NCBI RefSeq assembly: GCF_023923225.1
Contig: NZ_CP099489.1
Location: forward strand, 1,674,001-1,738,000
Source: Ornithinimicrobium faecis
GTDB lineage: Bacteria > Actinomycetota > Actinomycetes > Actinomycetales > Dermatophilaceae
DNA length: 64,000 nt
Reading direction: 5' to 3'
This document shows, piece by piece, positions 45,336-62,963 of this stretch. The position numbers and the translations under genes are program-made. The notes under the pieces are model-generated. The model was given only the letters and a program-made list of their open reading frames with translations, had not been told where the DNA came from and did not search any database. Numbering within the stretch: position 1 is the first letter of the stretch; the number at the start of each line of letters is the position of its first letter.

Positions 45336-45508
45336 GGTGTATGGCCAGGACTGGCGGCAAGGCGCGAGCCGACCTCTGCAGTGCCGACTCGCGGTGGAAT
45401 GACGCAGGTGCGCGGTGATTTGCCAGGGGCGCCCGGGCCCAGAACGATGCCCGGCCCGTAGTGTGTCGGCAGTCATCAACAAGCGACCGACAGTGGAGGA
45501 ACAACCCT

Positions 45509-46459: not shown

Positions 46460-46504
46460 GCGCCAGAATTCCTCGATGATCTCGGGCCTACGACGTCCGC
46501 GCAC

Positions 46505-46510
46505 TAGCCT
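46505..46510 (+). promoter_or_regulatory. Leaderless -10 box (TAGCCT)
   Basis: TAGCCT plus 6 nt precedes ATG 46517. Confidence 0.6.
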
Positions 46511-46516
46511 GGCTGG

Positions 46517-47275
46517 ATGCAGACGCTCGGAATCGACCTTGCTGCTAGCCCGAAGAAGACTGGCGTGGCGTGGTTGGAGTGGTCTGGAGGGAAGGCGCGC
46601 GTTTCAAAGCTCGTAGTCGGAGCCGCCGATGACGAGTTGGTCGAAGCAATGGCTACCGCTCACAAGACGGGAATCGACTGCCCGCTTGGTTGGCCCCGCG
46701 AGTTTGTTGATTTCATCGTGGAGCACCAGGACGACCACGTGGATGTCGACCCGGGGCTTGCCGCCGACTGGCGGAGGAGGCTGTCTTACCGCACGACTGA
46801 CCTGTATGTGAAGAGAGCGGTGCCAGGTATTCAGGGGCTCAGTGTCTCTGCAGACCGCATAGGCGTGACCACCATGCGCTGTGCAGCCCTGCTCTCGCAA
46901 TTGGCGGCGAGGGGCCTCGCCGTGGAACGAACAGGTAGTGGACCCATCACGGAGGTGTACCCAGCGGCGTCGCTGGTCCGGTGGGGGTTTGACCACAAGC
47001 GCTACAAGGGCACGAAGGCCCAGCCTCGTCGCAACCAGCTCGTGGATGAATTGCAGTCTGCGGCTTCATGGCTCGAACTCGGTGAATACGAGGAGGACTG
47101 CCGTGCATCGGACGATGCCCTGGATGCAGTCCTTGCCTCCATGACTGCACGGGCGGCGGCACTTGGGCTCGTGGAACCTGTCCCGGCCGGGAGCCAGGTG
47201 GCCGCCGCAACGGAGGGGTGGATCGCGCTTCCGCGGTCAGGTGTCAAGATCTCCGAACTCGCGGCGTCTGGCTGA
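46517..47275 (+). CDS. DUF429-family (RNase H-fold) predicted nuclease
   Basis: A 252-residue protein. The opening MQTLGIDLAASPKKTGVAWL is the RNase H-like first strand with its catalytic Asp. TGIDCPLGWPREFVDFIVEH and YRTTDLYVKR follow, then ITEVYPAASLVRWGF, and DCRASDDALDAVLASMTARA provides late acidic residues. This order matches DUF429, a family of predicted RNase H-like nucleases of unknown target. Its 3' end overlaps the convergent PD-(D/E)XK-like gene by 32 bp. Transcription from a leaderless promoter is likely. Confidence 0.85.
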   Translation: MQTLGIDLAASPKKTGVAWLEWSGGKARVSKLVVGAADDELVEAMATAHKTGIDCPLGWPREFVDFIVEHQDDHVDVDPGLAADWRRRLSYRTTDLYVKRAVPGIQGLSVSADRIGVTTMRCAALLSQLAARGLAVERTGSGPITEVYPAASLVRWGFDHKRYKGTKAQPRRNQLVDELQSAASWLELGEYEEDCRASDDALDAVLASMTARAAALGLVEPVPAGSQVAAATEGWIALPRSGVKISELAASG

Positions 47276-48452
47276 AGTCCGGTTTGCTGATCGCGAGCAG
47301 GGCATCGTGCAGACGGACGTCACCATCGCTCAGGCCGTTCAGGACTTCATCGAGACCGATATCCGACTGCAGGATGCGGTCGATGCCGTCGCCGCTGGCT
47401 GCTTTACGTGTCACGAAAATTTTCGTGTAGTCGGGATCAACTACCGGTTCAGCCACGAGTCCATTCTCCACGACGGCTGTCGGACCGAATTCCAAGTGCA
47501 GATTTCGGTGAGGGTCAGGACATATGAGCGCCACGCACCACTGCCACTGGCCAGAGAACGGTGTCTTGACCACCGTCTCTTGCCCAGTCGGCCGAGAGAT
47601 GTCGAGCTGAGAAGTGAGCGTGTGCTCGGCATAGTGCCTCAGCGCCCGTTTCACCTCGCCCAGTGTTTTGTGTCCTTCGTCGAACTGCTGCTTGGCGTGG
47701 AGCGCCACCAGGTCGGCGAACCCCTGCGCCGCTGCTTCGAGTGGCCGGTGGCCGTACCGCGCGCTCTCACCGGTGTCACACATGGCCTTGATGAACTGGA
47801 TCTGATCCTCGCCGCTCACAACCCCTGGTCCCTCCGTATAGTGCTGGACAAGTTCGCTGATGAAGAAGCCCTGACGTGTGTGTGCACGCTGCCACGCCCT
47901 GTCGTGAGCAATGTGCGTCTGCAGGCTCTCAAGCAACTCGGCATACGTCACGACTACGGACTTCTCCCAACCGTCTGTCAGGAGATGGCTGACGTGCCGA
48001 ACGCAGAGCAACACCACAACACTCTGCCGACCACCGGCAGCACCGTGGGCGAGATAGCGGTCATATCCGTGGCCATGACCGTCGGACCACTCGTAGTTCT
48101 CCACCACAACGCTCGCGCGTTCGTTCGTGAGCACGATGTCGGCAATGTCGCCGCTGACGTCCTCGTGGCTGGAGGTGTCGACTTCCTGGGTGATGCGATA
48201 TCCGCCGACTGGGAGCTGGTTCGCGTCGGCGAGGTGACGATTCACGCGTTCAACGAAGAGCCGTTGGAACGCATCGCCGAGTTCGTGTGTCCCGTCGGCG
48301 TCTAGCAACCACGCGAACACATTTGACAATTGCTTCTCGTGCGTGCCGTGGTGCATCACATGGAAGACGTTGAACTGCTCGGCCAGGCTCCTGGACAAGG
48401 AGGGCACCAGCGCGGTGACCATCTGGTTGAGCGCAGATACATCTTCGAGCAT
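47244..48452 (-). CDS. PD-(D/E)XK-superfamily-like protein with altered motif
   Basis: A 402-residue protein. The N-terminal third resembles the PD-(D/E)XK_4-type nuclease fold: EKQLSNVFAWLLDADG (early Glu39), DIADIVLTNERASVVVENYE (Asp102/105 and Glu118), then HGHGYDRYLAHG. In active relatives the motif is E-N-K; here it is E-N-Y, so the catalytic Lys is replaced. The remaining 250 residues are helical and strand-rich and not recognised. It may be inactive, use another Lys, or serve as a binding protein. A perfect leaderless promoter (TAGCCT, 48459-48464) precedes ATG 48452. Confidence 0.68.
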   Translation of the reverse strand: MLEDVSALNQMVTALVPSLSRSLAEQFNVFHVMHHGTHEKQLSNVFAWLLDADGTHELGDAFQRLFVERVNRHLADANQLPVGGYRITQEVDTSSHEDVSGDIADIVLTNERASVVVENYEWSDGHGHGYDRYLAHGAAGGRQSVVVLLCVRHVSHLLTDGWEKSVVVTYAELLESLQTHIAHDRAWQRAHTRQGFFISELVQHYTEGPGVVSGEDQIQFIKAMCDTGESARYGHRPLEAAAQGFADLVALHAKQQFDEGHKTLGEVKRALRHYAEHTLTSQLDISRPTGQETVVKTPFSGQWQWCVALICPDPHRNLHLEFGPTAVVENGLVAEPVVDPDYTKIFVTRKAASGDGIDRILQSDIGLDEVLNGLSDGDVRLHDALLAISKPDFSQTPRVRRS

Positions 48453-48458
48453 GCGCCG

Positions 48459-48464
48459 AGGCTA
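48459..48464 (-). promoter_or_regulatory. Leaderless -10 box (TAGCCT)
   Basis: On the minus strand TAGCCT plus 6 nt precedes ATG 48452; the local TAGCCTCGGCG equals that of yggS. Confidence 0.6.
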
Positions 48465-48627
48465 CCTTTGAACGCTCTACTGTGGGCTCGCCAGGCGGCG
48501 CATCCGACGATCGAGCCGGGTTCCTGGCATACGCTGAATGGGGTTGCCAGGCTCGTTCACGTCGGGCGCTCATGAGCCAATTCGGCCACTGCATTCGCGG
48601 CGCTAGGACGCACCAAGATGAGTCGTT

Positions 48628-49452
48628 CTAGCTCTTGGGAAGTTGAGCGCGCAGGTCGGCCAACTTTGGGCCGGTGGGAGAGCCAACACGCCAGATCTCC
48701 CACCCTCCGTACCCTGCCGAACTTGTAGCACCAAGCGAGATTCCGGCAGCCAGCGACGGAGCGGTATATCCGACGTCATTCACGAGGATTTGTCCATCCG
48801 GGGCGACAGTGCCAACGCCGTGCTTGCCCGCACGAGTGCAGTGCAGTTGTGCGCCTGCATGTAGCAGCCCGTAGGCGAGGAGGTCCGCAACTGTTCCAGG
48901 AATCTGTGTTCGGGTGACCGGAGAGGGGTGCTGCTCATCTACGTCCTGCCTGTGCGTGTCGACTCCCGCGAGTCGAACGGCTGCCAGAATCGAGGAAAGC
49001 AAGGAGTCCAGCGACATCTGCATGTGAGGAGGCAGGGTCGCATCGCCGTCGGTCTTTCCTTTGACTACAGCGATTCCTGAGATCGCGTCGAGTTCGGCGG
49101 AGAGTCTCCCCTCAAGGTAGCCCACGTCCGCAGAGGTGAATCCATTGCTGGTGTCGCGTTTAACGAGCACCGCGCGCGACCATCCCGGCACGTGTGAATT
49201 GGCTTGCTTGTGCTGCATGACACGAGAGCGGAGGTCAGTCGATTTGCCGACGTAGACGCTGCGGGAACCGTCGTCCGCGATCAAAACGTAGATTCCTGGA
49301 ACGCGCCACTCTGCCTCGGGCAGCCGACCTACGTCCCGCCGAGCGATGTAGGCAACTCGGATGGCGTGTTCGGCGAAATCGGCAATGATCGCTGCAGCTG
49401 CGGACGCCGGCACTTGAACGTTGACGGCGATGATCGCGTTCATGTCCGCCAT
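48628..49452 (-). CDS. GIY-YIG nuclease with RAMA-like C-terminal domain
   Basis: A protein of about 274 residues. The GIY-YIG core is VPGIYVLIADDGSRSVYVGK (GIY at 53-55, YVG at 67-69) with the catalytic Arg in STDLRSRVMQHKQAN. The C-terminal block (about residues 200-265: GAQLHCTRAGKHGVGTVAPD, ILVNDVGYTAPSLAAG, GYGGWEIWRV) resembles the RAMA/DUF4357-type domain found with restriction enzymes and methylases. I prefer the start at ATG 49452; the frame is open to 49530, but the extra residues look non-coding. A modification-reading nuclease is a reasonable inference. Confidence 0.75.
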   Translation of the reverse strand: MADMNAIIAVNVQVPASAAAAIIADFAEHAIRVAYIARRDVGRLPEAEWRVPGIYVLIADDGSRSVYVGKSTDLRSRVMQHKQANSHVPGWSRAVLVKRDTSNGFTSADVGYLEGRLSAELDAISGIAVVKGKTDGDATLPPHMQMSLDSLLSSILAAVRLAGVDTHRQDVDEQHPSPVTRTQIPGTVADLLAYGLLHAGAQLHCTRAGKHGVGTVAPDGQILVNDVGYTAPSLAAGISLGATSSAGYGGWEIWRVGSPTGPKLADLRAQLPKS

Positions 49453-49688
49453 CTTGCCGTATGGGACAGACCGCTGTGACGCCACAGGTGCCGATGCTCG
49501 CGCAAGACGCAGCCCTGCGGCAGGAGGCAACTAGCCAGTGTGTCCGATAGACGGCGGAATGACGCGCACTCGTTGTTCTGCGGTTGAACGCCGACCAGCC
49601 AGCTCACGTCTGGGGCGGGACTGGATCGGTGCGCTCTTCGTGGACTCGCCCTTGTCCGTCCGCCTGTTCACAGGCATCCTTGGTGAGC

Positions 49689-50303
49689 ATGGGACTACTT
49701 GACGGGTTGCGCCGACTGGTCGGGCTAGCCGACCCATCACCTGCCGAGCGGCCAACACCCAAAGTCGTGATCACGGTGGAGCGTTCGGCTGGGCCGAATC
49801 GCCGCCCGACCCCGCCTGAGGAGAGGCACTATCTCAGCGCGGAAGAGGCTGTCGAGTTGCTGGTACCGGGCGGTGACGGGCATTTGCCGGTGCGAATTCG
49901 TGACGGATTCTTTGAGCACGCCCCAACCGGTAGGCGGGTCACAGCGGCCAACCGGACATTGAACGCTCACGGGCTGCTCAGTTTCAAGGTGCGCGGTAAC
50001 GCGTACTACGAGAGCAAGGCAGCGGACACTCGCCCGGGCAAACCTGCATTCCTCGTGCGTGATCCTGACAACAAGCACGACCCCCACGCCGTTGCCGTCT
50101 ACGCGGAGGGCCGACCGGGCGAGAGGTTGCAGGTGGGGCACGTGAATAAGGGCCTGGCCCGCCGGCTGGCAAAACGCCTGGACTCGGGCGAAACGATTTC
50201 TGCCTGGTTCATGCGCGGCGATCCACCAGGCAAAGAAGGCGAGGGCGTCCCCTGCGTGGTGCTCACCGACGAGGAAGGCATCGCCAGACTGCTCGGAACT
50301 TGA
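49689..50303 (+). CDS. HIRAN-domain protein
   Basis: A 204-residue protein. The C-terminal half is a HIRAN domain: KPAFLVRDPDNKHDPHAVAV, then YAEGRPGERLQVGHVNKGLA and RRLAKRLDSGETISAWFM. HIRAN modules bind single-stranded 3' DNA ends in eukaryotic HLTF/Rad5 and occur alone or with nucleases in bacteria. The N-terminal half (MGLLDGLRRLVGLADPSPAE) has an amphipathic start and is not recognised. I place the start at ATG 49689; an upstream in-frame ATG at 49584 adds non-conserved residues. DNA-end recognition is inferred. Confidence 0.75.
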   Translation: MGLLDGLRRLVGLADPSPAERPTPKVVITVERSAGPNRRPTPPEERHYLSAEEAVELLVPGGDGHLPVRIRDGFFEHAPTGRRVTAANRTLNAHGLLSFKVRGNAYYESKAADTRPGKPAFLVRDPDNKHDPHAVAVYAEGRPGERLQVGHVNKGLARRLAKRLDSGETISAWFMRGDPPGKEGEGVPCVVLTDEEGIARLLGT

Positions 50304-50501
50304 CGAGGGCGGTCTGGTGAACACCGGGCACCGCCAAAAGCACGAAGTGGCGCTGAACCCTACGACGCTGCGCCGACCAGTTGCCCGCCCCATCACGGTG
50401 GAAAGGCGCTGCCCGTCCGCCGCCGCCAGATCACCTGCTGGGCCAACATAGGGCAGGAGGCGGAGGCGCTATGTGTGGGCGGTGAGGGCCATACTCACGA
50501 G

Positions 50502-51284
50502 ATGGTGACTGAGCAGCAGGGTGCAAGTGACTTGAACCGTGAACTCACCCGACTCCTCTCGTCTGTCGGTGAGAGCTTCGGGTTTGCCGTAGTGCCGGAG
50601 TATCCAGTCAGGGGCGGCAGGCTGGACGTCGTGTGGACCTGGGCCCCACCCAGCGAGGTGCCGGGCCTCGATACTGCGATTCCCGTGGTGGGCTTCGAAA
50701 TCGAGTCAAGCTGGCGAACGCGCAAGCATGTGAAGGGTGACCTGCTCAATCTGCAGGACGCCGGAGTCGGACTGGGTGTCATCGTCTTGGCGGGAGACAG
50801 CGACAAGGACGAATCCCTGCGAAGGTTCGCTGTCCAACTCGTGGACCGGCCAGGTACAAACGTGCTCGTTTGGACAGCGGAAGACGTGCGAGTCCTTGCC
50901 CAGGGCGCTGCAGGCGTAGAAGGGATCCTCGGCTCGCGTCCTGCCGCACTCCGGGTTGTACTAGCGGCGAAGGATGGGAGGACGACATCGCCTCTCGTTG
51001 GCACCTCGTCGACTGGTTCTGCTCTCGCAAAGGCCTCATACGCCGGCAAGTACGCCGCTCTCCACCGGTGGCTACGCACGCGAACCTCCCCTTCTGTCTC
51101 AGTGACGTTTGCTGAAGTGGAGGAAGTCCTGGGCTTCCCTCTTCCAAGCTCTTGCCGCAACCACGTGGCGCATTGGCACAGTTACGAAGGTAGCGCCGTC
51201 ACTCGAGCCATCCTCGACGCGGGATGGAAGGCCGACAAGGTAGACTTGGACGCACAGACCGTCAGGTTCGTCCGGGATGACTGA
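50502..51284 (+). CDS. PD-(D/E)XK-like protein with C-terminal DUF7662-like domain
   Basis: A 260-residue protein. The first domain has a nuclease-like strand order: GRLDVVWTWAPP (Asp42) and VVGFEIESSWRTRKHVKGDL (Glu66, Glu68, Lys75/78), followed by LGVIVLAGDSDKDES. The second (about residues 185-258) has the pattern YAALHRWLRTRTSPSVSVTF, AEVEEVLGFPLPSSCRNHVA and HWHSYEGSAVTRAILDAGW. This is a small recurrent domain I recall as DUF7662. The domain pairing suggests a DNA- or RNA-targeting protein. Start ATG 50502 is behind a CATACT box at leaderless spacing. Name and boundaries need a profile search. Confidence 0.65.
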   Translation: MVTEQQGASDLNRELTRLLSSVGESFGFAVVPEYPVRGGRLDVVWTWAPPSEVPGLDTAIPVVGFEIESSWRTRKHVKGDLLNLQDAGVGLGVIVLAGDSDKDESLRRFAVQLVDRPGTNVLVWTAEDVRVLAQGAAGVEGILGSRPAALRVVLAAKDGRTTSPLVGTSSTGSALAKASYAGKYAALHRWLRTRTSPSVSVTFAEVEEVLGFPLPSSCRNHVAHWHSYEGSAVTRAILDAGWKADKVDLDAQTVRFVRDD

Positions 51285-51310
51285 CCTGGCGAACCAAGCG
51301 AACACTCAGC

Positions 51311-51606
51311 CTATGACTGCGGATCCGCGTCGATCAGCCAGACGTCGATGCGTGCTCCAGGTTCCTCACGGGGCTTCGGCTGCCGTTTCATGGCCCGTCT
51401 GTCATCGACCTGGTCGTCGGCCGGTCGCCGCGTGCCCTGCCACGGGCGCAGGCCGGAAATGCCCTCCATGGCATCGAGAGTGGGTTTGATGCGGTTGTCC
51501 AGATCCCAAACCTCACTTACTCGGCGTGCCTCTCCCAGTCGGAATTACAGGTTCACAGCGAAGCGTCTGGGCCTGGACGATACGGGCCAGGATCGATTCC
51601 GGGTAG
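51311..51606 (-). pseudogene. Remnant of a RusA-like Holliday-junction resolvase
   Basis: On the minus strand the frame reads RRFAVNL-stop-FRLGEARRVSEVWD, then LDNRIKPTLDAMEGI, ADDQVDDRRAMKRQPKPREE and PGARIDVWLID before a TAG at 51311-51313. DLDN-x-x-KPTLDAM and DDxxV are the RusA-family catalytic blocks. An in-frame TAA at 51545-51547 and no start codon mark it as broken. It occupies the 330-bp gap between two plus-strand genes. Confidence 0.6.
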
Positions 51607-51609
51607 CGT
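51604..51609 (+). promoter_or_regulatory. Leaderless -10 box (TAGCGT)
   Basis: TAGCGT plus 6 nt precedes ATG 51616. Confidence 0.55.
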
Positions 51610-51615
51610 CGCGGT

Positions 51616-54153
51616 ATGAGGGGCGAAGAGCGTCATGGGCACAACCCGCCGCGGACTGTCGAGGAACATGAGTTTGTTGGTGCAGCGAGCGGTCTAACGT
51701 GTCAAGCGTGGCCTTCTGAACCTGGAGTGCGGCACGCTCAGGTTGTAGCAGCGGCCTGGGTCCCAGATCGCGTGGTGCTTGTGGCCGCGAGCAGGGCAGC
51801 TGCATATGCGTTCATGTGTCGTGGCTTGGCTGAGGAGTTGGACAAGCATGATCTGGCTCTTGTTGCCTATGCGCGGCGTGTTGCCAGCCAGGGCACCGCC
51901 GACGTCAGCTGCGTCTGGGTGAGCTTCCCGAGAGTGGGTGAGGCCAGAGTTGGCGAACCTGTTGATGACCGCCCCGCGGAGATAGCCGAAGAGGTGTGGC
52001 GCGGAGTGCGCAGGCAGCTCCTGGAGGCGGATGCCGAGGTGCAAGCGCGATTCGTTGCTGCCCGCAGACGGGCCCAGGAAGAGTTGAAGGACCGGGCTGC
52101 ACCACTATTTGAAGCTATGCATGCTTACATGAAGGTGGCACCGCCGCCAGAAGGTGCGGGCGAAAATGCATTCACTCACCGCATCAGCAGGTCGCACACT
52201 ACAGGTGACCGATGGGCGCTAGTGAGTCGGAGAGAGGATCGGGTCGCCTGTCTCGATATAGATTCCGGGGTCCTGATGGTTACGCATGGGACCGACCGAC
52301 GTAGTGTGACCGAGTACCTTGAGACGAACGGCTACGCCCCACGTCGTCCGCTCAACGGGTGGGCCTCTCCCCGAATGATCGGCGCACTGACGCAGGTGAC
52401 TCAAGACCGTGTGTCCGTGGTGGTCTGTGTCGGTGCTTCCCTGGCCAGATTCCGGACAAACCTTGACTGGCAGCAAGGGCTCTGGGACAGCGGGAAGCGT
52501 GGCCTGCCGCAAAAGGTTGCCGTCTACTACCCAGACACCCAAGAGGTGACTTGCCTGTCGCCCGCGTGGGAGTCGCCGGTCAGAGAACTCCTCGCTACTC
52601 ACGGCTTGACCGTGTCTGGCTTTCTGGACTGCATTCCCTCCAAGGGATACTCCCAGCGATCCGTCGACCGCTTGTCCTGGCGTGCGCGAGTAGATGGAAC
52701 GATCCAAGCCCTCGAACGTGCAACAGCCCTCCTTGCGGCCGGCGATAATGTACCCACAGCCAAGCCTTCATCTACAGCCGAGCCTTCGCGCCGGCGGAAG
52801 GCGAACCCAGCGCCGCGAAATGGTTCCGGAGCACGGCGACGACTCTTGGTGAGTACTCGGGTAGCCATTCCGCCCAGTGTGGCTGAGGCGCTAGAGGGCC
52901 TCTTTGCCAGGGAAGAGCCATGGCATAGGTACTGGCTCATGCCGCACGCAGGTCAGCCTGAGCGTCGCGACTGGGCCTTGAGTAGTGAGCAGTTGGATCA
53001 GTTGGCCGCCGCCGTGGATTATATCCCCGTCCCGCCCACGGCACCCGCCGCAGTTAGGCAAGCGCGAGAACTATCCGCTATCCATACCCCTGCTCTCGCA
53101 GCGCTTAACCTCCGCGATACCGAGCCGGACTGGTGGGACTCTCTCCCATGGCGCGAGATCACCACAACCCCGGTAAATCACAAGGGCGAACCGCTTCGTG
53201 GCCATCTAAGCCTGGGAGGATTGTCGGCACGCAGCAGAAGGTCCGCGACTCAACCCGGTCTCGTCGCCCTCTTTCAGGACGGAGAAGAGAGCCGCCGCCG
53301 CGAGTGGCAATATAAGTTCTTCCACGACCCGGTACTCGAGTTGGGCGTCAACGGGCAAGCGCAGATTTTGCTCGCTATCGCAGCGCTCAGACAGAACGGA
53401 CTCCTCGACGCGCCGGTCGATCTCGGCCTGCTCACCAGATGCCTGTTGTGCCGCCTGAAGTTCCCAGTTGCGATACTCCCGGTCGGAGCGGTGACATTCA
53501 CCGGATCGAATCAAGTGTGCCCTCGCTGTGCAGGTGACGCCTACCACGGGTGGGTGGAACCAGGAACGCGCCCAGGGACCACGGCGACCATATACCCGGC
53601 GAAAGCATGTCGGGACGCACTGGTCGAACTATCGCGCGCGACGGGCGGTCTCCCATCCCGAGAGATTCTTCGTGTGCCGCTCACCGCCATGCGGACCCTA
53701 GACACGAGAGAACGCGTGAGGCAACTATGTCTACGGATGGTGGTCCCCGCTGTCGGTTCATGGTCGGCGGTGCTCGCCGCAACTGGCATGCTTGACGGCT
53801 GGCGCCCTTCACGCGGCATCTACAGCACTGCCACTGACGGGCACCCTTGCAGGTCTCTCTTCGAGAGGTATGTCGACGACTTCCTGACGCGGCAGGGGAT
53901 CGCGCACTCCGTCGAACCCTCGTACCCCCACGACGCGGAGCTCAACCCGAATGGGCTACGAGCGGACTGGAAACTCGCCGACGGCACATTCGTGGAAGCT
54001 GCCGGACTCTCCTCAAACGAATACTTGCACAAACTTGACCGCAAGCGTCTCCTTGCTGACACCGCCGGCATCAACCTCATCATCCTTCAGCCAAGCGACC
54101 TTTCTCACCTTCATCAAGTCTTTGCGAATCAGCAGGGGTCAGTAGACAACTGA
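51616..54153 (+). CDS. Large zinc-ribbon protein with C-terminal Vsr/TnsA-like endonuclease domain
   Basis: An 845-residue protein of unrecognised overall family. Residues 1-330 are mixed alpha/beta with a helical stretch (AEIAEEVWRGVRRQLLEADA). About 375-415 is a Ser/Arg/Lys/Pro linker. Residues 415-600 are unassigned. A zinc ribbon has Cys609/612 (CLLC) and Cys635/638 (CPRC). The C-terminal 100 residues form a PD-(D/E)XK core: Glu750 in SLFERYVDDF, Asp784 in NGLRADWKLADG, Glu794 in FVEAAGLSS and Lys806/810 in HKLDRKRLLADT. A DNA-cleaving defence or mobile-element protein is plausible. It is monocistronic with its own leaderless promoter. Confidence 0.68.
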   Translation: MRGEERHGHNPPRTVEEHEFVGAASGLTCQAWPSEPGVRHAQVVAAAWVPDRVVLVAASRAAAYAFMCRGLAEELDKHDLALVAYARRVASQGTADVSCVWVSFPRVGEARVGEPVDDRPAEIAEEVWRGVRRQLLEADAEVQARFVAARRRAQEELKDRAAPLFEAMHAYMKVAPPPEGAGENAFTHRISRSHTTGDRWALVSRREDRVACLDIDSGVLMVTHGTDRRSVTEYLETNGYAPRRPLNGWASPRMIGALTQVTQDRVSVVVCVGASLARFRTNLDWQQGLWDSGKRGLPQKVAVYYPDTQEVTCLSPAWESPVRELLATHGLTVSGFLDCIPSKGYSQRSVDRLSWRARVDGTIQALERATALLAAGDNVPTAKPSSTAEPSRRRKANPAPRNGSGARRRLLVSTRVAIPPSVAEALEGLFAREEPWHRYWLMPHAGQPERRDWALSSEQLDQLAAAVDYIPVPPTAPAAVRQARELSAIHTPALAALNLRDTEPDWWDSLPWREITTTPVNHKGEPLRGHLSLGGLSARSRRSATQPGLVALFQDGEESRRREWQYKFFHDPVLELGVNGQAQILLAIAALRQNGLLDAPVDLGLLTRCLLCRLKFPVAILPVGAVTFTGSNQVCPRCAGDAYHGWVEPGTRPGTTATIYPAKACRDALVELSRATGGLPSREILRVPLTAMRTLDTRERVRQLCLRMVVPAVGSWSAVLAATGMLDGWRPSRGIYSTATDGHPCRSLFERYVDDFLTRQGIAHSVEPSYPHDAELNPNGLRADWKLADGTFVEAAGLSSNEYLHKLDRKRLLADTAGINLIILQPSDLSHLHQVFANQQGSVDN

Positions 54154-54285
54154 TCCGCACATCCGCCCAGCCAAAGCCAGCACGCCAGGACCTTAAGACG
54201 GACTCGTGTGTCCATCCGCACTCCTTGCGGTGCTAAGACGCGCCTTTGAGCTCTGTGTGCAGTGGGAACAGGGAAGCCGCGAACG

Positions 54286-54996
54286 CTAACGAGCTCGGGG
54301 GCGGGCGCCTTCGTTAATCCGGGTCGCGAAGTTCGCGAGGCGCTTAGGGCTCTCGCTCGTCCAACCGTGAGCGGCAGCCCACTCCTTCATTTCCTGTGCC
54401 GGTAGGCGCAATCCCGCGTCGTGGAGCTTCAGCAGTTCACGGACGACGACACGCTTCTCATAACCCGCGCTGATGGTGTTACTGTGGTTGATCAACCGAG
54501 TCATAGACTCAAGGGCCGAAATCACTTCAGGCTGTAGTTCCTCCACCTCCACGATCCCCCAGAGCACCCGATCCTCCTCGTCCAACTCGATTTCATGCAG
54601 CACTGTCGCGCCGACCTCCTTGGCCCAAGTGCTCAGATGATCGGCCCATTGAACGACACAAAGTGCGGTGATCCCAGTGGCACGGATGATTTTGCCCAAG
54701 TCGTCTGCGTCAGCGTAAAGGGCCAGCACCGGGCCGTTTGCTCTGTAGAACCCACCCCCTCGTCCGACTGCGACCTCCACCCGTCGCGATGAAGTGAGAC
54801 CGCGCACAAAGTCGTTGGCGCCTAGGACGCTCTTCTGGGACACCCAGACCGTCAGGTGCTGGCCGTCCTGAAGATGCGAGCCAACCCATCGGAGCGCGGC
54901 CTCATGCCCATCGTCGGATTGATCGGAGATGGCACAGGGATAATCGCTCGGCTTTGCAAACAAAGTTGAACTCCGGTTCGAAGTGTAGGCGGGCAC
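54286..54996 (-). CDS. Hypothetical protein (about 236 aa)
   Basis: A soluble protein with no recognised family. It has an alpha/beta N-terminal half (HLTVWVSQKSVLGANDFVRG, GPVLALYADADDLGKIIRAT, TALCVVQWADHLSTWAKEVG) and a helical C-terminus (KRVVVRELLKLHDAGLRLPA). The open frame reaches 55095, but residues before the GTG at 54996 look non-coding, so that GTG is my choice of start. It lies between the 845-residue gene and the BRCT-nuclease gene on the opposite strand to both. Confidence 0.6.
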   Translation of the reverse strand: MPAYTSNRSSTLFAKPSDYPCAISDQSDDGHEAALRWVGSHLQDGQHLTVWVSQKSVLGANDFVRGLTSSRRVEVAVGRGGGFYRANGPVLALYADADDLGKIIRATGITALCVVQWADHLSTWAKEVGATVLHEIELDEEDRVLWGIVEVEELQPEVISALESMTRLINHSNTISAGYEKRVVVRELLKLHDAGLRLPAQEMKEWAAAHGWTSESPKRLANFATRINEGARPRAR

Positions 54997-55215
54997 TGAG
55001 ATCCTGGCAGACGGGGCTGACAGCCGGCCGACGTCGGTCCGCAGTGTTCGGGATCTGGCGCGGCACCCAGTCCGCACCGACCCTGCCTTCACCAAGTCAA
55101 CAGGCGGACGTGGCGGTCAGCGCCCGCGACGCTGCGCCGCTCCGGGAACGTCAGGTCGGACGTTTCCAGCGTCAAGGCACCTAACGCGGCAGAAGGACGC
55201 AGGCGTCGCGGCCCG

Positions 55216-55389
55216 TCAGGACGTCCTACGCGTGGCCCGGCACGGGTAAGTTGCCCCGGATTCTAAGCCGTATCTCTCGGCGAGGGCGCGCAGCCTGTTA
55301 GGCGTGCTGGTGTAACTGCGGGCGGCGGTTTCCACGGAGACCCTCACGTAGCACTCCACGAAAGTGCGATCGTCTGCCACCCTGACCAC
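55216..55389 (-). CDS. Possible small protein (57 aa)
   Basis: A GTG-initiated 57-residue frame (VADDRTFVECYVRVSVETAA, then RSYTSTPNRLRALAERYGLE) that would start immediately next to the oppositely oriented BRCT-nuclease gene. A shorter start is GTG 55380. It reads like a real helical segment but could be a leftover. No other feature explains the 54,997-55,389 gap. Confidence 0.3.
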   Translation of the reverse strand: MVRVADDRTFVECYVRVSVETAARSYTSTPNRLRALAERYGLESGATYPCRATRRTS

Positions 55390-56256
55390 ATGAGCGCGAT
55401 GGCCGGGCGATCCGAGTGCGATGGCTACGTCGAGGACCTCCAGGGTCGGCTCGTGCTATTCACAGGCAAGACTCGCATTGAGGGTAAGCACGTGAAGCGC
55501 GACGAGCTGTTCCAGACAGTGCGGAAGCGGGGCGGTCTGCCCTTGGCCGGTACGCGGAACCGAAACGTCACCCTCCTCGTCCTGGGCGAGCTCTCCGAGG
55601 ACGTCGTCACCGACCCAGTAAACCTGCGGAGCCAGAACGTCGTGTTCGTCGACGCGGAGCGGCGACGAGGCAACCACATCTGCATCGTCAACGACCGTGG
55701 GATCGCCGCCCTGCTGAGCGGCGAGAGTGCACCGTGCTTGCGCTCGCGGATGATTCACGCGGATACCGTCGAACTGAGTCTTCCGACCCCCATGCGTCCG
55801 ACCAGTCCTCGCCTTACCCCCCTGACCGTCGGCGCGACACCGGAGCATAAACCGACTGGGCTGGACCTCGATCTCTCCGGGCTCGACCGAGGTACGTCGG
55901 CCCACCAGGCGACTCTCGCGCTCCTCGTCGCACACTTGGCTCCAGTCCCCGCGATGGGGCTCACCTCGCCTCGGGTCGACGCTGCGTGGCGATCCCCCGA
56001 CGAACCGACAGTTCTGTTCGTCGCCGAGGTGAAGAGCCTGACGGGTGCCCGCCAAGACCAGCAGGTCCGTCTCGGCATCGGTCAGGTCCTGGACTACGTT
56101 CATGCGCTTCGCGAGCGTCCACCTGCACATGTATCCGTGATCAGCCCCGTTCTGGTGTTGGAGCGAGAACCAGAAGACAGACGTTGGCTTAACCTGGCAG
56201 ATTCGCTTGGACTCCTGCTGACGTGGGCGCCGAGGTTTCCGGGCCTGCGCGGATAG
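55390..56256 (+). CDS. BRCT domain fused to a PD-(D/E)XK nuclease domain
   Basis: A 288-residue two-domain protein. Residues 16-112 look like a BRCT fold: LQGRLVLFTGKTRIEGKHVK, LFQTVRKRGGLPLAG, VTLLVLGELSED and NVVFVDAERRRGNHICIVND. Residues 170-288 are a nuclease core with Asp197 (PRVDAAW), Glu213 and Lys215 (LFVAEVKSLTG) and Gln232 (GIGQVLDYVHAL), a canonical D-ExK-Q set. A Pro-rich linker joins them. BRCT modules bind DNA breaks or phosphopeptides, so break-directed cleavage or sensing is the inferred role. ATG 55390 has a CACCCT box 6 nt upstream. Confidence 0.78.
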   Translation: MSAMAGRSECDGYVEDLQGRLVLFTGKTRIEGKHVKRDELFQTVRKRGGLPLAGTRNRNVTLLVLGELSEDVVTDPVNLRSQNVVFVDAERRRGNHICIVNDRGIAALLSGESAPCLRSRMIHADTVELSLPTPMRPTSPRLTPLTVGATPEHKPTGLDLDLSGLDRGTSAHQATLALLVAHLAPVPAMGLTSPRVDAAWRSPDEPTVLFVAEVKSLTGARQDQQVRLGIGQVLDYVHALRERPPAHVSVISPVLVLEREPEDRRWLNLADSLGLLLTWAPRFPGLRG

Positions 56257-56382
56257 CCGCGCACGCGCCGCCTGAGGGCCACTCGGTTGGTCAAACGTGC
56301 CCTTGCACCGTAGGCGGCGATATGACGCAGGCGAGTCACGCCGAGCACGTTTGACCCATGTGGTCGGGTTCCTCGGGGTGGC

Positions 56383-56970
56383 TCAGCGCAACTCGCGGCG
56401 TGCCGCGATGATGTCGTCGACATAGGAGTCAATGGCGGCCTCGATCTCGGCCTCCTCACGCTCGAATGCTTCATCCTCCATGCGCTCGAACTGTTCGCGA
56501 GCGAGCACCTCGAGCTCTTGAAGGTCGAACGTGCCGAAAACCCTCCCGCTGGTCGCAATGGTGATACTCGCTCCGGGCAGCCGGCGCAATGAGCGATTCT
56601 TCTGGGGGTCTTCACCGGCTTCTGCGAGGTGGCCATTCTCGAGCACCGCCTCATCGAGGTGCTCTAGCGCGTTTCTGAGGTCGCGAAGTTTAGCATTAGC
56701 CTCCGGTAGCTCTATCCCACGCTCGCGCGCCAGCCGGCTTGTCCAACGCTCCAACTGATGGAGTGCCCAGATCAGGCTGTGCTCCTCCGTCCAGTTCTGG
56801 CGCCAGAGCGGTTCAAGCTCTGTCGCCAGGTCTCGATCCCACTCTCGGTCGAGCTGACGGTTTAACCTGGCGGCTTGTTGTTTAATCTCGCGTACACGCT
56901 GTACTTGCCTAATCGTTGATTCCGCCCACGCGCGAACGAATGTGACACACATTTCCTCAGCCTCACTCAT
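56383..56970 (-). CDS. Hypothetical helical protein with HEPN-like Rx4H motif
   Basis: A 195-residue, highly charged, mostly helical protein. ALHQLERWTSRLARERGIEL is followed by KLRDLRNALEHLDEAVLENG, where Arg99-Asn-x3-His104 fits the R(N)x4-6H active-site pattern of HEPN ribonucleases. The C-terminus is strongly acidic (FERMEDEAFEREEAEIEAAI). The family is not recognised. It is followed, on the opposite strand, by the DUF3644 HEPN protein. HEPN membership is inferred from motif and helicity only. Confidence 0.6.
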   Translation of the reverse strand: MSEAEEMCVTFVRAWAESTIRQVQRVREIKQQAARLNRQLDREWDRDLATELEPLWRQNWTEEHSLIWALHQLERWTSRLARERGIELPEANAKLRDLRNALEHLDEAVLENGHLAEAGEDPQKNRSLRRLPGASITIATSGRVFGTFDLQELEVLAREQFERMEDEAFEREEAEIEAAIDSYVDDIIAARRELR

Positions 56971-57223
56971 GCATATATCCTCGCAGTCGGCATATTAGGG
57001 GCTCCTCATCGGCGGAGGGCTAAACCTATCACCCCACCCTCAAAGACGAAGAGCCACTTTGGACCCATGGCTGACCTCTTACGTCGTCGCGGAGTGTACT
57101 GAGGGGCGAGGCTGTAGCTTCCACTACGGGTAACGCTTGCGTCGACCCTCCACCTGTCGGTGGCGTTGTGCTACTGAGAGGGATGTGCATACTGCGAGGA
57201 CCTATCAATAGGGAGGCCACACC

Positions 57224-58228
57224 GTGGGCGCACCGTACGTCTCGATCAAGCGTCTGGCCGACAACTCGCTCTCAGCGATGCTGTCGGCTGTGGAGGTCTA
57301 CAACAAGCCGCAGATGACCTACCGCGACGAAGTCGCCGTCATGCTAGTCGTTAACGCGTGGGAGTTGGCGCTTAAGGCGACGCTGCGCCAGAAGAACCGT
57401 TCGATTTTCTATCCGAAACAGCGAGGTGAGCGTTACAGGTCAATAGGCATCGACGACGCGCTCGGAAGGGTCAGCGCCAGAAATCTCTGGCCGGCTGACA
57501 TCGACGGTCCGGCAGCCACCGCGAACATCAAGGCGCTCACCGAGTACCGCGACCGTGCGATCCACCTTTACAACGCCCAAGGGCTTGGGGCAGTCCTCTA
57601 TCCGTACTTGCAGCAGAACGTCTTGAATTACCGCGACTTCATGTTGGCCAAGTTCAAGAAGGACCTGGCGGACTCCATGACATGGCAGTTGCTCCCACTT
57701 GGAGCGGCGGCACCGGCCGACGCGGTGCAGTTCATGAAGGTCGACCGCAACTCGACGATGGTCGTTGAGGTTGAGGAGTTCATTAAGGAACTGCGCCACC
57801 TTATGGACGAGGCGCAGGATTCCGGTGGCGATATGGCGCGAGTCGCCACGATGTACGACATCAACATGCAGTCGGTGAAGAAGATGTCGAGCGCGGACCT
57901 GGTGGTGGCGGTCTCCCCGACGGCCGATGGGCAGATCGCCGTCCGCAAGACCGATCCGAACCAGACCCACCCGTACAGCGCCACGGAGCTGCTCAAGAAG
58001 GTCAACACGAGGCGGAAGGGCCGAAAGCTGACCAGCTACGACGTCCAGGTAATCTGCTGGAAGGAGTCGCTGCGAGACAACACCAAGTACGCCTGGAAGC
58101 ACAGCAACGGCGCATCGCACGTCTGGTCTGGCGACGCGCTCTCGTACTTGGCGTCGCTCTCAGATGAGCGCTACAACGCTCTTCGGTCCGAGTTTGTTGC
58201 CCACCGTCGAGCGATGGCGAATGGGTAG
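57224..58228 (+). CDS. DUF3644 (HEPN-clan) protein
   Basis: A 334-residue protein. The N-terminus AMLSAVEVYNKPQMTYRDEV, then AVMLVVNAWELALKATL, is the DUF3644 signature. LTEYRDRAIHLYNAQG supplies an Rx4H motif (Arg109-His114), as expected for HEPN ribonucleases. The C-terminal third (SYDVQVICWKESLRDNTKYA, HSNGASHVWSGDALSYLASL) may bind nucleic acid. GTG 57224 has GGGAGG at 57211-57216, a strong ribosome-binding site. DUF3644 proteins occur in defence islands. The flanking genes on both sides are HEPN-like too and lie on the opposite strand. Confidence 0.8.
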   Translation: MGAPYVSIKRLADNSLSAMLSAVEVYNKPQMTYRDEVAVMLVVNAWELALKATLRQKNRSIFYPKQRGERYRSIGIDDALGRVSARNLWPADIDGPAATANIKALTEYRDRAIHLYNAQGLGAVLYPYLQQNVLNYRDFMLAKFKKDLADSMTWQLLPLGAAAPADAVQFMKVDRNSTMVVEVEEFIKELRHLMDEAQDSGGDMARVATMYDINMQSVKKMSSADLVVAVSPTADGQIAVRKTDPNQTHPYSATELLKKVNTRRKGRKLTSYDVQVICWKESLRDNTKYAWKHSNGASHVWSGDALSYLASLSDERYNALRSEFVAHRRAMANG

Positions 58229-58456
58229 GGGAGTGCGCGCCTCAGCACGACCTTCTCGGCAGAGTAGTGTTGTCACTATCCTCCTGGGCGGCCTCGCGCC
58301 GGCGCGCAAAACTACCCGACTCGCCTGTAGTCTATTCTGGGCGAAACGCGGCGTTGTGGGTCAAGTTCATTCGGCTGCGACCAACCACCGTCGAGTTGGT
58401 GAGGTCACGGCAGGTCTGAGTGGCGCCGAGGTTAGTCTCTGAGACTATGAGCACGT

Positions 58457-59755
58457 TCACCAGCGATCTCTGAGGACCGCCTTCTTGAGTCCGAGTCGCA
58501 AAGCGATCCAGGCGCGGAGCAACTGCACCCCCTGTTGGTAGTGCTCAGCCTTCGTCGCGGGAGCGACGGGTGCGCGGTTCGCATGCTTCACCGAGTTGTA
58601 CGAGTCCGCGAAGTCCTGAGCGAAGTTGGTCGTTCCGAACGTGACGGCATTGCCGGTCTCCACCAAGAGGAACTCGACTCGACTCTTGACGCTTGTTGAG
58701 TTCGCTGAGGCAGGTGGACGCCCAGAATCGATCAGTGCTTGGTAGCCGACCGCCTCCATTGCGATGCCCAATTGCATCATGTGGGCATCGACAGTCGCTC
58801 CCGCAAGGTCGAGTAGGCGGACCAAGGGGTCGAGGCCACGCGCATACTGATTTGTGAGCTTGAGCCAACGCCCAACCCCCGCTCGGCCGATGTCAGCGTA
58901 GTTGAATAGGAACCGGTCGCTGACCGTCCATGTCGCCTCGGACATAGAGGTGACGGCCGTCCGAACCGCGTACCAAGGTTGCCGCTCCACCCCACTCAGA
59001 GTGAAGGTCTCCTTCGTGCTCGCGGCCTCGTGGGACTGGAAGTCCAGGGGCTTCCAGGCGGCGATCCGCAAGAGGTCCCGTACTCCAAAATGCAGAGTGA
59101 GGTGATCGCTCCATTCGCGTGGGGCCTTTGCGAAGGTCTGGAGAAACACCTGACTTCGATAGGTCACCTCCGGGGTCTGCTGTCCGGAGCTGGTAGCCCG
59201 GGCCATGGCGCGTAGGTTCAGCGCGCGACCTAGCTCCATGTCGTCGACAGGAGTGGCGCTGGTAGTCATCGCACGGCCCGAGCCGTCCTTCTTGAAACTG
59301 ACGGTGGACCTGAGAGCTGAGTACCCCAGCCAGTAGGCCAGACCGTCGATCTCCGAGCGGAGGCCGTTAGGCTTGACATAGTGCTTCGCCAAGCCGGCGC
59401 CCTCAATGGCAAAGGACGCTCGGATCATTCCGACTCCTGCGTCGGGACATTGGCCGCCGAACCTCTGCGTTGATGGCCCGCTTCGGCAACCGATGAGTCC
59501 GACCGTCCCCTTATTGTCGTAGTAGTCGAGTTCGCTCGGCGGGCTGTAACTGTGCTTGGTGCGGTCGGGGTCGTCTGCGAACATCGTGCCCTGACTCCAC
59601 CAGCGGCCTCTCAGATCAGCGCTCCACACGTGATAAGGAACCCTGACGCGGACACCGAGGCTGTCATGCTCGTAGAGCGCGGTCATGAGTTCGGTGTCGG
59701 GGTCACCGTCGACCAGAAACCCGATCCGGGGCTGTACTGTCTGCGGGTCAGGCAT
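58457..59755 (-). CDS. ApeA-like protein with C-terminal HEPN-like domain
   Basis: A 432-residue protein. The N-terminal 250 residues form a beta-rich domain (ADLRGRWWSQGTMFADDPDR, KGTVGLIGC, GMIRASFAIEGAGLAKHYVK, EIDGLAYWLG) resembling the ApeA N-terminal domain. Residues 300-432 are helical and end in FADSYNSVKHANRAPVAPAT and LLRAWIALRLGL, the layout of ApeA-type HEPN domains. The usual Arg of the RxxxxH motif is not evident; the YNSVKH segment keeps only the His. ApeA is an abortive-infection nuclease, so a phage-defence role is inferred. Moderate confidence: no profile search was possible. Confidence 0.62.
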   Translation of the reverse strand: MPDPQTVQPRIGFLVDGDPDTELMTALYEHDSLGVRVRVPYHVWSADLRGRWWSQGTMFADDPDRTKHSYSPPSELDYYDNKGTVGLIGCRSGPSTQRFGGQCPDAGVGMIRASFAIEGAGLAKHYVKPNGLRSEIDGLAYWLGYSALRSTVSFKKDGSGRAMTTSATPVDDMELGRALNLRAMARATSSGQQTPEVTYRSQVFLQTFAKAPREWSDHLTLHFGVRDLLRIAAWKPLDFQSHEAASTKETFTLSGVERQPWYAVRTAVTSMSEATWTVSDRFLFNYADIGRAGVGRWLKLTNQYARGLDPLVRLLDLAGATVDAHMMQLGIAMEAVGYQALIDSGRPPASANSTSVKSRVEFLLVETGNAVTFGTTNFAQDFADSYNSVKHANRAPVAPATKAEHYQQGVQLLRAWIALRLGLKKAVLRDRW

Positions 59756-59906
59756 CTGCGTTCAAAGCCTCCCTCGCCACCCCGGCGTCGCACAGACCGG
59801 TGGGCACAAAAATCAACAAGACGGGCATCCAACGATGCAAGCGTGTCGTTGGGTCTAGGCATTGTGCCTCAAACTGGGCGGAATGCCCGTGGGCCGGGGT
59901 GCCGAG

Positions 59907-60830
59907 CTAGACGCCGGCGACATATGCGGTGAGGAAGTGGACTCCGTGGCGGTCGAGGTTGCCGCGGGCTCGGTCGTAGTGCTCGGTGGTTCTGGGGTCG
60001 GCATGTCTGGCGAGGATCTGGGCGTCGCGCAGGGGCACTCCGGGGTCCAGGGCGTTGGTGATGGCAGCGTGCCGTAGCGAGTGAGGACTGATGTGGCGCG
60101 GGATCTGCGCCGTCTTTGCGATCCGTGCGACCATCCGGTAGACATCGCGCCGGTCGAGGGGGTGGCCAGAGATCGGGCGCAGCACCAGTGGGCCGGCGGT
60201 GCGCTCGACTCGCCAGGCTTCGAGGACGCGAAGCACTGGGACGGTGAGAGGCATGGTCGCTGGCTTGTTGCCCTTGCCGATGAGGCGCAGGACGCGGTGT
60301 CCGCGCAGGGTGTCGGCGTAGTCCTCGATCTGCCCTGCTGCGGCCTCGGACGCGCGCAGGGCGTTGATCCCCAGTAGGTAGGCCAGCGCGACGTGATGGA
60401 CGGTGATCATCTGGGCTACTTGGAGGAAGCGGATCAGCTCCAGCCGGTCCAAGCCCTGGGTGCGCGACTCATCTCGGTGGACCTTCGGGAGCTGGGCGTA
60501 CACGGCAGGGTCGGCCGGGATGGTGCCATCGATGTGCGCGAACCGGAAGTATCCCCGAACAGCGTGCATCATCGTGTTCACCGCGGAGTCCATCAGGCCT
60601 GCTTCTCCGAGCTGGCGGATATAGAGCTCAACGTGCGCTCGTTGTATCCCGACGAGCGGGTCCACTCCGTTGGTCTCGCACCAGGCGAACCAGCGAGCCA
60701 GTTGCGTCGTATACAGGCCGTGGGTAGCTCCGGAGTAACGAGCCAGGAACGACACTGCCGCAAGTTGCGCGGTGCTCATCGTGGACGGCTGGAACGGCAG
60801 CACCGTCTTCGAACTCGTTGTGGTGGTCAT
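59907..60830 (-). CDS. Tyrosine recombinase/integrase
   Basis: A 307-residue site-specific recombinase. A core-binding SAM-like domain spans residues 25-100 (VSFLARYSGATHGLYTTQLA, NTMMHAVRGYFRFAHIDGTI). The catalytic domain has the full set: Arg159 (INALRASEAA), Lys189 (GKGNKPATM), His250 and Arg253 (SPHSLRHAA), His276 (ILARHADPR) and Tyr285 (TTEHYDRARG). The start ATG 60830 is chosen over the longer open frame to 60953. It is not phage-sized and no att site or tRNA is next to it, but its place at the edge of the nuclease-rich region suggests it mobilised part of it. Confidence 0.9.
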   Translation of the reverse strand: MTTTTSSKTVLPFQPSTMSTAQLAAVSFLARYSGATHGLYTTQLARWFAWCETNGVDPLVGIQRAHVELYIRQLGEAGLMDSAVNTMMHAVRGYFRFAHIDGTIPADPAVYAQLPKVHRDESRTQGLDRLELIRFLQVAQMITVHHVALAYLLGINALRASEAAAGQIEDYADTLRGHRVLRLIGKGNKPATMPLTVPVLRVLEAWRVERTAGPLVLRPISGHPLDRRDVYRMVARIAKTAQIPRHISPHSLRHAAITNALDPGVPLRDAQILARHADPRTTEHYDRARGNLDRHGVHFLTAYVAGV

Positions 60831-60910
60831 GGTCGCCTTCTGCGGCGACCTGGCTCGAGGCCTCGGCCGATACCCGCCGCTGGCGCGACGAGGCGCTGAA
60901 CCCTTTGAGA

Positions 60911-61338
60911 CTACGCCGAACGGACACGCGTCCCCTCGCGGTGGAATGGGCACCTAGTTGCTGACGCCCCATTGCGAGGGGTCAGGGGGCTGCCACAAAG
61001 TCGAACTTGATCGTCATCGGAGACCGCCCACACGTAGACCCTGAGACGGTTCCTCATCCACTCTGGGACACGGAGCGCCACGGCGACTGCCTGTTCAGGA
61101 ATCACGACATCAAGGACTGCGTCCGCCCCTTCCTCAGGAACGCGTCGCAGGACCTGACCGTAAAGGGTGTCGACGTCGCTGACCATCGTTTCGGTTCTGC
61201 CCTTTGCCTCTGCGTAGAGCGTTCCCGAGCCCTTCGTCGCCTTGACGTCGGCGAAGTCGACCTACCGCTAGACAACCCAACCGTCGCGCTCGAGGAATGT
61301 GCAGAAGGCCCCACCACCCGGGCCTCGTCCCCTCTCAT
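60911..61338 (-). pseudogene. Broken PD-(D/E)XK-like nuclease gene
   Basis: Read leftward from ATG 61338 (GGGAGG upstream), MRGDEARVV shifts frame at a GTGGTGGGG run into GAFCTFLERDGWVV. It then meets TAG-CGG-TAG and continues VDFADVKATKGSGTLYAEAK, GRTETMVSDVDTLYGQVLRR and VPEWMRNRLRVYVWAV to a stop at 60911. The block FLERDGW...D-x-K-AT...EAKG...YGQ is a typical restriction-like fold. One frameshift and two stops make it inactive. It explains the 530-bp gap between the integrase and the next gene. Confidence 0.68.
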
Positions 61339-61486
61339 GACCGGCCTCCCTTGTATTGCGACGCGACCAGCATGGCTCAGTGTGGCGTGGGGCGGCACAG
61401 CCGAGCCGTTGCGCGGCGATGCGACGCGGTGTCGATTGGGACCTACGCGTCGAACGCCAGGGCGAATGAGCCGCCATTATGGATCC

Positions 61487-62293
61487 GTGACCGACGACAT
61501 CAACAACGATCGTGAAGACCTTCTTGCTCTGGGCGCTGAGATCTCGGGCGCTACCGCGGGTACCGCAGCGGGCCTCTTCATCGGTGGTCCCGCTGGCGCC
61601 TTGGCAGGCGCGGCCATTGGCCCCGCTGCGGCTGAAGGGCTTCGATGGGCCATCGCAGAAGTGGGTGATCGCGTTCTGGGCCGCAGAGGTCGGCAACGGG
61701 CAATGAGTGCAGCGATCTATGCTGGTCAGCACTTAGAGGAACTGCGGAGCCAGGGCGCCGAGCTCCGGAGCGACGGCTTCTTCGAGAGACAGGACGAGGG
61801 CCTAAGTTCTTCGGAGGAGATGGCCGAGGGCGTTCTACTCGCGGCCCAAGGCAGCTTCGAGGAGCACAAGATTCGACATATCGGCTACCTGTACGCGAAC
61901 ACGGCAGTCGATGACGGGATCGACCGCTACCTGGCGGGGATGGCGCTTAAGAGGGCCGGAGAGATGACCTGGCGTCAGTACGTTCTTCTCGCAATGGTTG
62001 GATCCCGGAACGAAATTGATTTACCTCAAGGTGAGCTCTCTGACGACCCGGGTGCGTGGTCCGCCTGGGGAGCGCTAAGCGAGTTGCGCGATCTCTTTAA
62101 TGCGCGTTATATCCATGCTGGTCAGGAGCGGACAGACCGGTTTGGCCTCCCCTTTCCAGGTCAACAGCTGACTGAACTTCGCCTGACCACTCAGGGGCAG
62201 TTGCTCCATCACCTGCTGTCGTTGAAGTTGATTCCACCTTCAGAGGTGCTGCAAGTCCGGGATCTACTAGGGACTCGAACCAATCGGGAGTGA
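61487..62293 (+). CDS. Hypothetical protein with glycine-zipper membrane segment
   Basis: A protein of about 268 residues starting at GTG 61487 (CATTAT box 6 nt upstream). Residues 15-55 form a Gly/Ala-rich hydrophobic stretch (LGAEISGATAGTAAGLFIGG, PAGALAGAAIGPAAAEGLRW) able to insert in membranes. The rest is a soluble helical domain (GFFERQDEGLSSSEEMAEGV, GMALKRAGEMTWRQYVLLAM). I do not recognise the family. A glycine-zipper plus a cytoplasmic sensor could be a membrane effector, but this is speculation. The open frame extends to 61007, but that part overlaps the nuclease remnant and is not conserved-looking. Confidence 0.62.
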   Translation: MTDDINNDREDLLALGAEISGATAGTAAGLFIGGPAGALAGAAIGPAAAEGLRWAIAEVGDRVLGRRGRQRAMSAAIYAGQHLEELRSQGAELRSDGFFERQDEGLSSSEEMAEGVLLAAQGSFEEHKIRHIGYLYANTAVDDGIDRYLAGMALKRAGEMTWRQYVLLAMVGSRNEIDLPQGELSDDPGAWSAWGALSELRDLFNARYIHAGQERTDRFGLPFPGQQLTELRLTTQGQLLHHLLSLKLIPPSEVLQVRDLLGTRTNRE

Positions 62294-62374
62294 AGCAAGA
62301 TGGATCCGACTGCCCTGCACTACGTCGGATCGCGGTGGTGTGACGCCCTTCCACGCGCCTCCAGCCCAGTTGAG

Positions 62375-62838
62375 TCAGTCGACGCCGAACCACGCGTCGG
62401 CTGCGGCTTGAAGACCATCGTCCGGCGGTTCCGGCTCCACACCGTAGAACTTCCACGCGTATCCGTACGGATCCTCGACCTCCACGTAAACGCTCGCCCC
62501 ACGGGGCAGACTCCGGGCCTTCAGCAATGATGAATCCTGCGGCCACGGCGAGTCGGGTGGCCTCGTCTACATCCGCCAGTTCGATGCCGATGTTCACGCC
62601 GAGTCCACGTGGGCCGGACCTGGTCAGCTGCTCGCGCGCACTGTCGGGGAACGGCATCCCCTCCAACGCGTCAACGAGCAACTGCAAGAGTCCTCTTCTC
62701 AGGGTCGCCATCAGCACGAGTCCGTTCGGATCCGGGACCATCCCAATCTGCACGAAGCCGAGTTGCCCGTACAACGCCGCGGCGGCGGCAACGTCGTCGA
62801 CCCGTAGTGCCACGCGCACTGGGGGGTTCGTCGCTCAT
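62375..62838 (-). pseudogene. Frameshifted VOC-family (glyoxalase/bleomycin-resistance-like) protein
   Basis: The product would begin MSDEPP at ATG 62838 and continue VRVALRVDDVAAAAALYGQL, LQLLVDALEGMPFPDSAREQ, LGVNIGIELADVDEATRLAV and AEGPESAPWGER, then VYVEVEDPYGYAWKFYGVEP to a TGA at 62375. Two breaks exist: six C (62821-62826, G on plus) instead of five near the start, and a 1-nt loss near 62,490 (GAGCGTTTACG). A GTG at 62819 could restart after the first break. The VOC core is otherwise intact, so recent decay or sequencing error is likely. Confidence 0.72.
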
Positions 62839-62963
62839 TCAGCGACCGTAGCGTGCTCGGCCGCGGCACCGAGCAGGTCATCACGGATCGCCTGGTCGCG
62901 GGGCGGCCCGTTCTGGGCGGAATGACTCGCGGGCCCTCTTGTGCCTGCACGCCCAGTGGAGGC

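Follow-up and report, generated by a model that had tools for sequence, protein, structure and literature searches.

Three neighbouring genes in a putative defence island of Ornithinimicrobium faecis, one of them from a variant branch of ApeA-like HEPN proteins

The three genes and their motifs

The 64,000-nucleotide stretch of the Ornithinimicrobium faecis genome analysed here (contig NZ_CP099489.1, forward-strand positions 1,674,001 to 1,738,000; hereafter the window) carries, within 3.4 kb, three genes on alternating strands for which an earlier note, made from the letters alone, had proposed HEPN-like products. According to the list of open reading frames these are P1 (195 amino acids, 56383–56970, minus strand), P2 (334 amino acids, 57224–58228, plus strand) and P3 (432 amino acids, 58457–59755, minus strand), with P1 and P2 divergently oriented and 253 bases apart. 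The motifs that the note had pointed out were recovered by motif search and alignment: RNALEH in P1 (R99–H104; 56659–56676, minus strand), RDRAIH in P2 (R109–H114; 57548–57565, plus strand) and YNSVKH in P3 (Y386–H391; 58583–58600, minus strand). Profile searches agreed with its description of P2 as a DUF3644 protein and of P3 as ApeA-like, and by family assignment the HEPN label holds for these two; for P1, which matched no HEPN profile at E ≤ 10, it is unproven.

The bare motif means little, because an arginine followed after four residues by a histidine (Rx4H) is frequent both in the open reading frames of the window and in shuffled sequences. Of the 39 window open reading frames chosen as likely genes 26 contained it, as did 43%, 35% and 56% of shuffled P1, P2 and P3 sequences, respectively; for R[NDH]x3H the corresponding values were 8/39 and 6–8%. 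Rx4H alone is thus weak evidence for a HEPN domain. What stands above chance is conservation, namely of the arginine and the histidine among the relatives of P1 and of P2, and of a Lys-His pair in the class of proteins to which P3 belongs.

P2 matched DUF3644 (PF12358) with an E-value of 2.6e-40 and 138.4 bits (cut-off 27.6), the C-terminal EC042_2821 REase-like domain (PF18740) with an E-value of 8.7e-14 and 52.3 bits, and the PADLOC candidate PDC-S19 over residues 7–331 with an E-value of 1.3e-100. Both R109-[ND]-x3-H114 and E47-x3-K51 were invariant in 9/9 aligned rows; this alignment omits L062 and L068 (partial), L065 and L067, and L060 is partial at its start. DUF3644 and EC042_2821 are assigned to HEPN in a 2013 survey (PMC3710099), and PDB profile hits of P2, all weak, were HEPN toxins in three of four cases (E 0.06–0.24). 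Sharing the profile, the R..H pair and the Ex3K motif with the DUF3644/EC042_2821 family (PADLOC PDC-S19), and with no unusual feature seen, P2 is by its sequence a typical representative of a candidate defence family already known. The protein also matched, for the greater part of its length, the functionally uncharacterised PHROGs family phrog_9605 (E 1.7e-32), so that relatives of P2 occur in viruses of prokaryotes.

Relatives of P1 were found in Streptomyces plasmids (3 records), at 11 loci in actinobacterial genomes, mostly of Streptomyces, and on one viral contig. R99, E103 and H104 were invariant in the 12 aligned rows (omitted were L003, which is broken, L031, a near copy of L030, and L038 and L039, which have broken frames), and they lie in a conserved stretch R[ND]ALEHLDE with N or D at position 100 in 12/12 rows, so that the conserved R[NDH]x3H pattern of HEPN proteins is present. 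In its size and its RNxxxH-like motif P1 resembles small HEPN proteins of the Abi type such as AbiU2. Unlike them, P1 and its 11 relatives matched no HEPN Pfam or other HEPN family at E ≤ 10, a result with which distant membership is still compatible.

It is plausible but unproven, judging from these residues, that P1 is a HEPN RNase. Alternatively, P1 may fall outside HEPN, with Rx4H serving a structural role in an unrelated small protein present in Streptomyces, its relatives and this island, which is a realistic possibility even if we somewhat doubt it. Several observations weigh on that side and against a HEPN assignment: besides the missing HEPN profile match, nothing in Pfam, NCBIfam or PADLOC matched P1 at E ≤ 1, no sequence relative was found in the PDB at E ≤ 5, a profile comparison with P2 was insignificant (probability 0.04%), and Rx4H is common by chance. 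The conservation of R99 and H104, with N or D following the arginine in every row, argues the other way, since a polar residue commonly follows the HEPN arginine according to the 2013 survey (PMC3710099). As a separate observation, the P1 relatives in all three Streptomyces plasmids (L002, L003 and L004) follow a gene annotated as an excalibur calcium-binding domain protein.

A variant branch of ApeA-like proteins

P3 matched ApeA_NTD1 (PF18862) with an E-value of 3.9e-18 and 66.4 bits (cut-off 25.5), and HEPN_Apea with an E-value of 3.4e-4 and 21.5 bits, which is below the curated Pfam cut-off of 24.4. Scanning 248 genomes of the order with PF18862 gave 27 match rows that represent 26 genes: 13 encode Rx4H (class I), 11 including P3 encode Lys-His without the arginine (class II), and 2 (L073 and L075) are without the motif region. 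A scan of the phylum returned nine genes besides P3, of which one was class II, six were class I, one had neither motif (L117) and one was truncated (L115). These scans are unbiased, and the alignment from which the following counts were taken is a biased sample gathered by similarity to P3; it holds 36 proteins, 20 of them class I (including L117) and 16 class II, with the partial L057 omitted.

Column 386 of this alignment is Arg in 19/20 class I proteins, with RNx3H in 18/20, and Tyr (14), Phe (1) or Thr (1) in class II. Neither P3 nor any other of the 16 class II rows has the Rx4H arginine, and P3 is for that reason filed as a member of a variant branch and not as a canonical ApeA. The arginine of the Ex3R motif (column 338) is present in 16/20 class I proteins, and this position is never Arg or Lys in class II. 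Other parts of the site are kept in both classes: the acidic residue Glu334 (codon 58754–58756, minus strand) in 20/20 and 15/16, with Asp in the remaining protein, and His391 in 19/20 and 16/16. Two basic residues distinguish class II, namely Lys390 (0/20 against 16/16) and Arg414 (codon 58514–58516, minus strand; 3/20 against 16/16).

That the variant motif occupies the place of the classical one was seen by profile-profile alignment of 16 class II with 19 class I rows (L117 omitted), which ran through the C-terminus over 418 columns with a probability of 99.6% and an E-value of 5.5e-24 and put YNSVKH opposite RNDLAH. The HEPN_Apea profile was matched at E ≤ 0.01 by 9/15 class II rows, the best at 7.2e-8, and in an IQ-TREE phylogeny of 34 rows (L117 and L113 omitted) one branch divided the classes with support 100/99. 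P3 hence shares full-length homology, domain order, Glu334 and His391 with ApeA (PF18862, PF18739; PADLOC Cas13-ApeA and PDC-S58), and class II differs by Tyr, Phe or Thr in place of the Rx4H arginine, by the absence of the Ex3R arginine and by the fixed Lys390 and Arg414. The P3 site had been called degenerate, which is misleading because YNxxKH is conserved across a clade. ApeA is listed with a conserved Rx4-6H catalytic motif in the 2013 survey (PMC3710099), and P3 lacks that motif.

Further proteins (L122–L126 and L129–L131; L123 and L116 represent one gene) lie outside the counts of 16 and 20. YNxxKH together with Arg414 was present in L122, L129 and L130, and L131 belongs to class I. The more distant relatives L124, L125 and L126, possibly a third branch, keep Y..KH and are without Arg414.

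The RNase active site of the P3 branch seems rebuilt rather than lost, because the two arginines of the classical site are absent while two basic residues are fixed. Tentatively, as something that could well be so, we propose from these patterns that class II proteins are active HEPN RNases in which the catalytic His391 was kept, the Rx4H and Ex3R arginines were dropped, and the basic residues were shifted to Lys390, directly beside the histidine, and to Arg414 in the following helix; they would form a recurrent actinobacterial single-gene defence branch that current models miss. A comparable arrangement is described for the type IX retron-Kva2, whose HEPN protein is without RxxxxH and uses a site formed by H64 and the sequence-distant R122, both required for defence (PMC13405049). 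P3 could work likewise. It is not a member of that group, being of the ApeA family by sequence, and no reverse transcriptase family was detected among the island open reading frames scanned.

The alternative, that class II lost catalysis and that its HEPN domain merely binds RNA or mediates dimerisation, we consider unlikely, if by no means far-fetched. Two points weigh in its favour: both classical arginines are gone from 16/16 class II proteins, and according to the 2013 survey some HEPN domains that lack the motif may act in binding only (PMC3710099). The absence of Arg414 in L124–L126 calls for caution about a rebuilt site. Retention of His391 with fixation of Lys390 and Arg414 in 16/16 proteins is not what decay would be expected to produce, and relocated residues have been reported or proposed in other HEPN domains (PMC3710099, PMC13405049). 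By its sequence P3 is a probable RNase that would act alone through a rearranged site.

Two class II genes, in two related genomes of the same genus, are each preceded immediately upstream by a PglX/BREX-type methyltransferase gene (L052:6264-11289 and L053:5388-12069), and the gene that comes next in L053 has partial pAgo-related PADLOC matches. HEPN RNases are reported as auxiliary effectors in BREX loci in a 2026 survey (PMC12839542).

Independence of the three genes

The side-by-side position of the three genes had led the earlier note to offer two explanations, a multi-component system in which an inactive P3 regulates active P1 and P2, or three separate single-gene systems. Among the 248 genomes of the order, with the source genome included in the counts, P1 was present in 1 (the source), P2 in 11 and P3 in 13. 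P2 and P3 occurred together in one further genome, about 440 kb apart. Within the genus (31 genomes) P1 was found in 1 genome, relatives of P2 in 3 (two with partial matches of 28–31% identity) and relatives of P3 in 4 (one with a class I protein); no genome of the genus other than the source held two members of the trio.

The same picture emerged from the surroundings of the relatives. At 42 loci (15 for P1, 12 for P2 and 15 for P3, with flanks from <1 kb to about 10 kb) a second member was detected in none by tblastn at E ≤ 1e-4, and neighbouring gene families within 5 kb recurred in at most 3 of the 15 P3 loci and 3 of the 13 P2 loci, the own window included. The neighbourhood check that had been suggested for the trio thus revealed no conserved co-occurrence of P1, P2 and P3 in the order, the genus or these loci. 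DNA similarity of P2 was confined to 57220–58158, that is to the gene, in all five relatives compared.

The strongest single datum for independence is a block shared with a congener (58344–59880; 1,538 bases, 91.7% DNA identity), which consists of P3, flanking stretches of 113 and 125 bases and little else. P1 and P2 were not found in the 20 kb around this block, nor elsewhere in that 74%-complete genome. The congener copy of P3 (92% identical; L134:9001-10533) is split across two frames and for that reason appears inactivated.

Adjacency within 3.4 kb favours a multi-component system, and the divergent arrangement of P1 and P2 across 253 bases also counts for it and against independence. Opposed to this are the alternating strands, the single other genome with two members so far apart, the 42 loci without a second member, the occurrence of P3 by itself in the congener, and a P3 site that is conserved rather than decayed. 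The regulator model is therefore largely refuted and very improbable. Within the samples searched the three genes behave as independent units, and because of the co-occurrence counts, the relatives' loci, the congener block and the limits of P2 similarity, the most likely reading of the sequences is that of three separate single-gene systems which share a mobile island.

The island and the proposed roles of its genes

The trio lies in a variable island (44372–62963) that was delimited by comparing the window with stretches of up to 20 kb from six congeners. Four of these matched up to 39.1–42.7 kb, continued with 56–155 bases and matched again from about 63 kb; in two of the four the edges were at 40.1 and 62.98 kb, joined by 82 and 105 bases. 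The fifth matched to 44.36 kb, carried 4.9 kb of other DNA and matched again from 62.98 kb, and for the sixth the right flank alone matched. Because the matches stop and restart around it, the span of about 44.4–62.9 kb is considered variable, and the island is missing at this site in 5/6 congeners compared. Its left edge was fixed by one congener, and the four others are also without the preceding 2–5 kb.

A tyrosine recombinase/integrase gene adjoins P3 (59907–60953, minus strand; Phage_integrase, E 1.9e-18). With P2 included, five island genes matched PADLOC phage-defence candidates at E-values from 1e-100 to 2.5e-5; the other four matched PDC-S44 (46517–47275, E 1.7e-8), PDC-S26 (47244–48452, E 1.1e-12), PDC-S14 (48628–49530, E 3.6e-96) and, weakly, PDC-S69 (51616–54153, E 2.5e-5), the latter through C-terminal residues 738–838 of an 845-residue protein without a Pfam match. 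The region is taken to be an integrase-bearing defence island, the putative defence role being based on the island context and the PADLOC candidates, and the trio as such is a gene cluster of the kind ordinarily seen in defence islands. The island additionally holds a PIN-domain gene and a HIRAN protein, two open reading frames near P1 (54286–55095 and 55390–56256) gave no convincing Pfam, NCBIfam, PADLOC or PHROGs match, and a GNAT gene common to the congeners adjoins the right edge.

Taken together, we are fairly confident that the locus holds three unrelated single-gene modules in an integrase-bearing defence island: P2, which would act as a stand-alone DUF3644 HEPN nuclease, P3, an ApeA-type protein with moved basic residues, and the small P1, possibly a third HEPN RNase. 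As regards RNase activity, defence function, trigger and dimerisation, we infer from homology to ApeA that the β-rich N-terminal domain of P3 may sense infection, upon which RNA cleavage by the HEPN dimer would bring growth to a halt. ApeA is reportedly activated by deoxydinucleotides, going by the title of a 2026 preprint.

Among the matches listed, judged by title and abstract opening, no published description of the class II branch was found, which does not establish its absence from print. The Cas13-ApeA and PDC-S58 models of PADLOC matched 5/5 class I proteins tested and 0/6 class II proteins, P3 included. Class II draws attention to putative defence genes that went unreported by PADLOC models in 6/6 cases tried. 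HEPN domains without Rx4-6H tend to be called inactive in motif-based surveys. A rebuilt site in the P3 branch makes a direct comparison of the variant residues with class I possible and, if true, the loss of the arginine with retention of the histidine and fixation of new basic residues would mean that HEPN active sites can be rebuilt.
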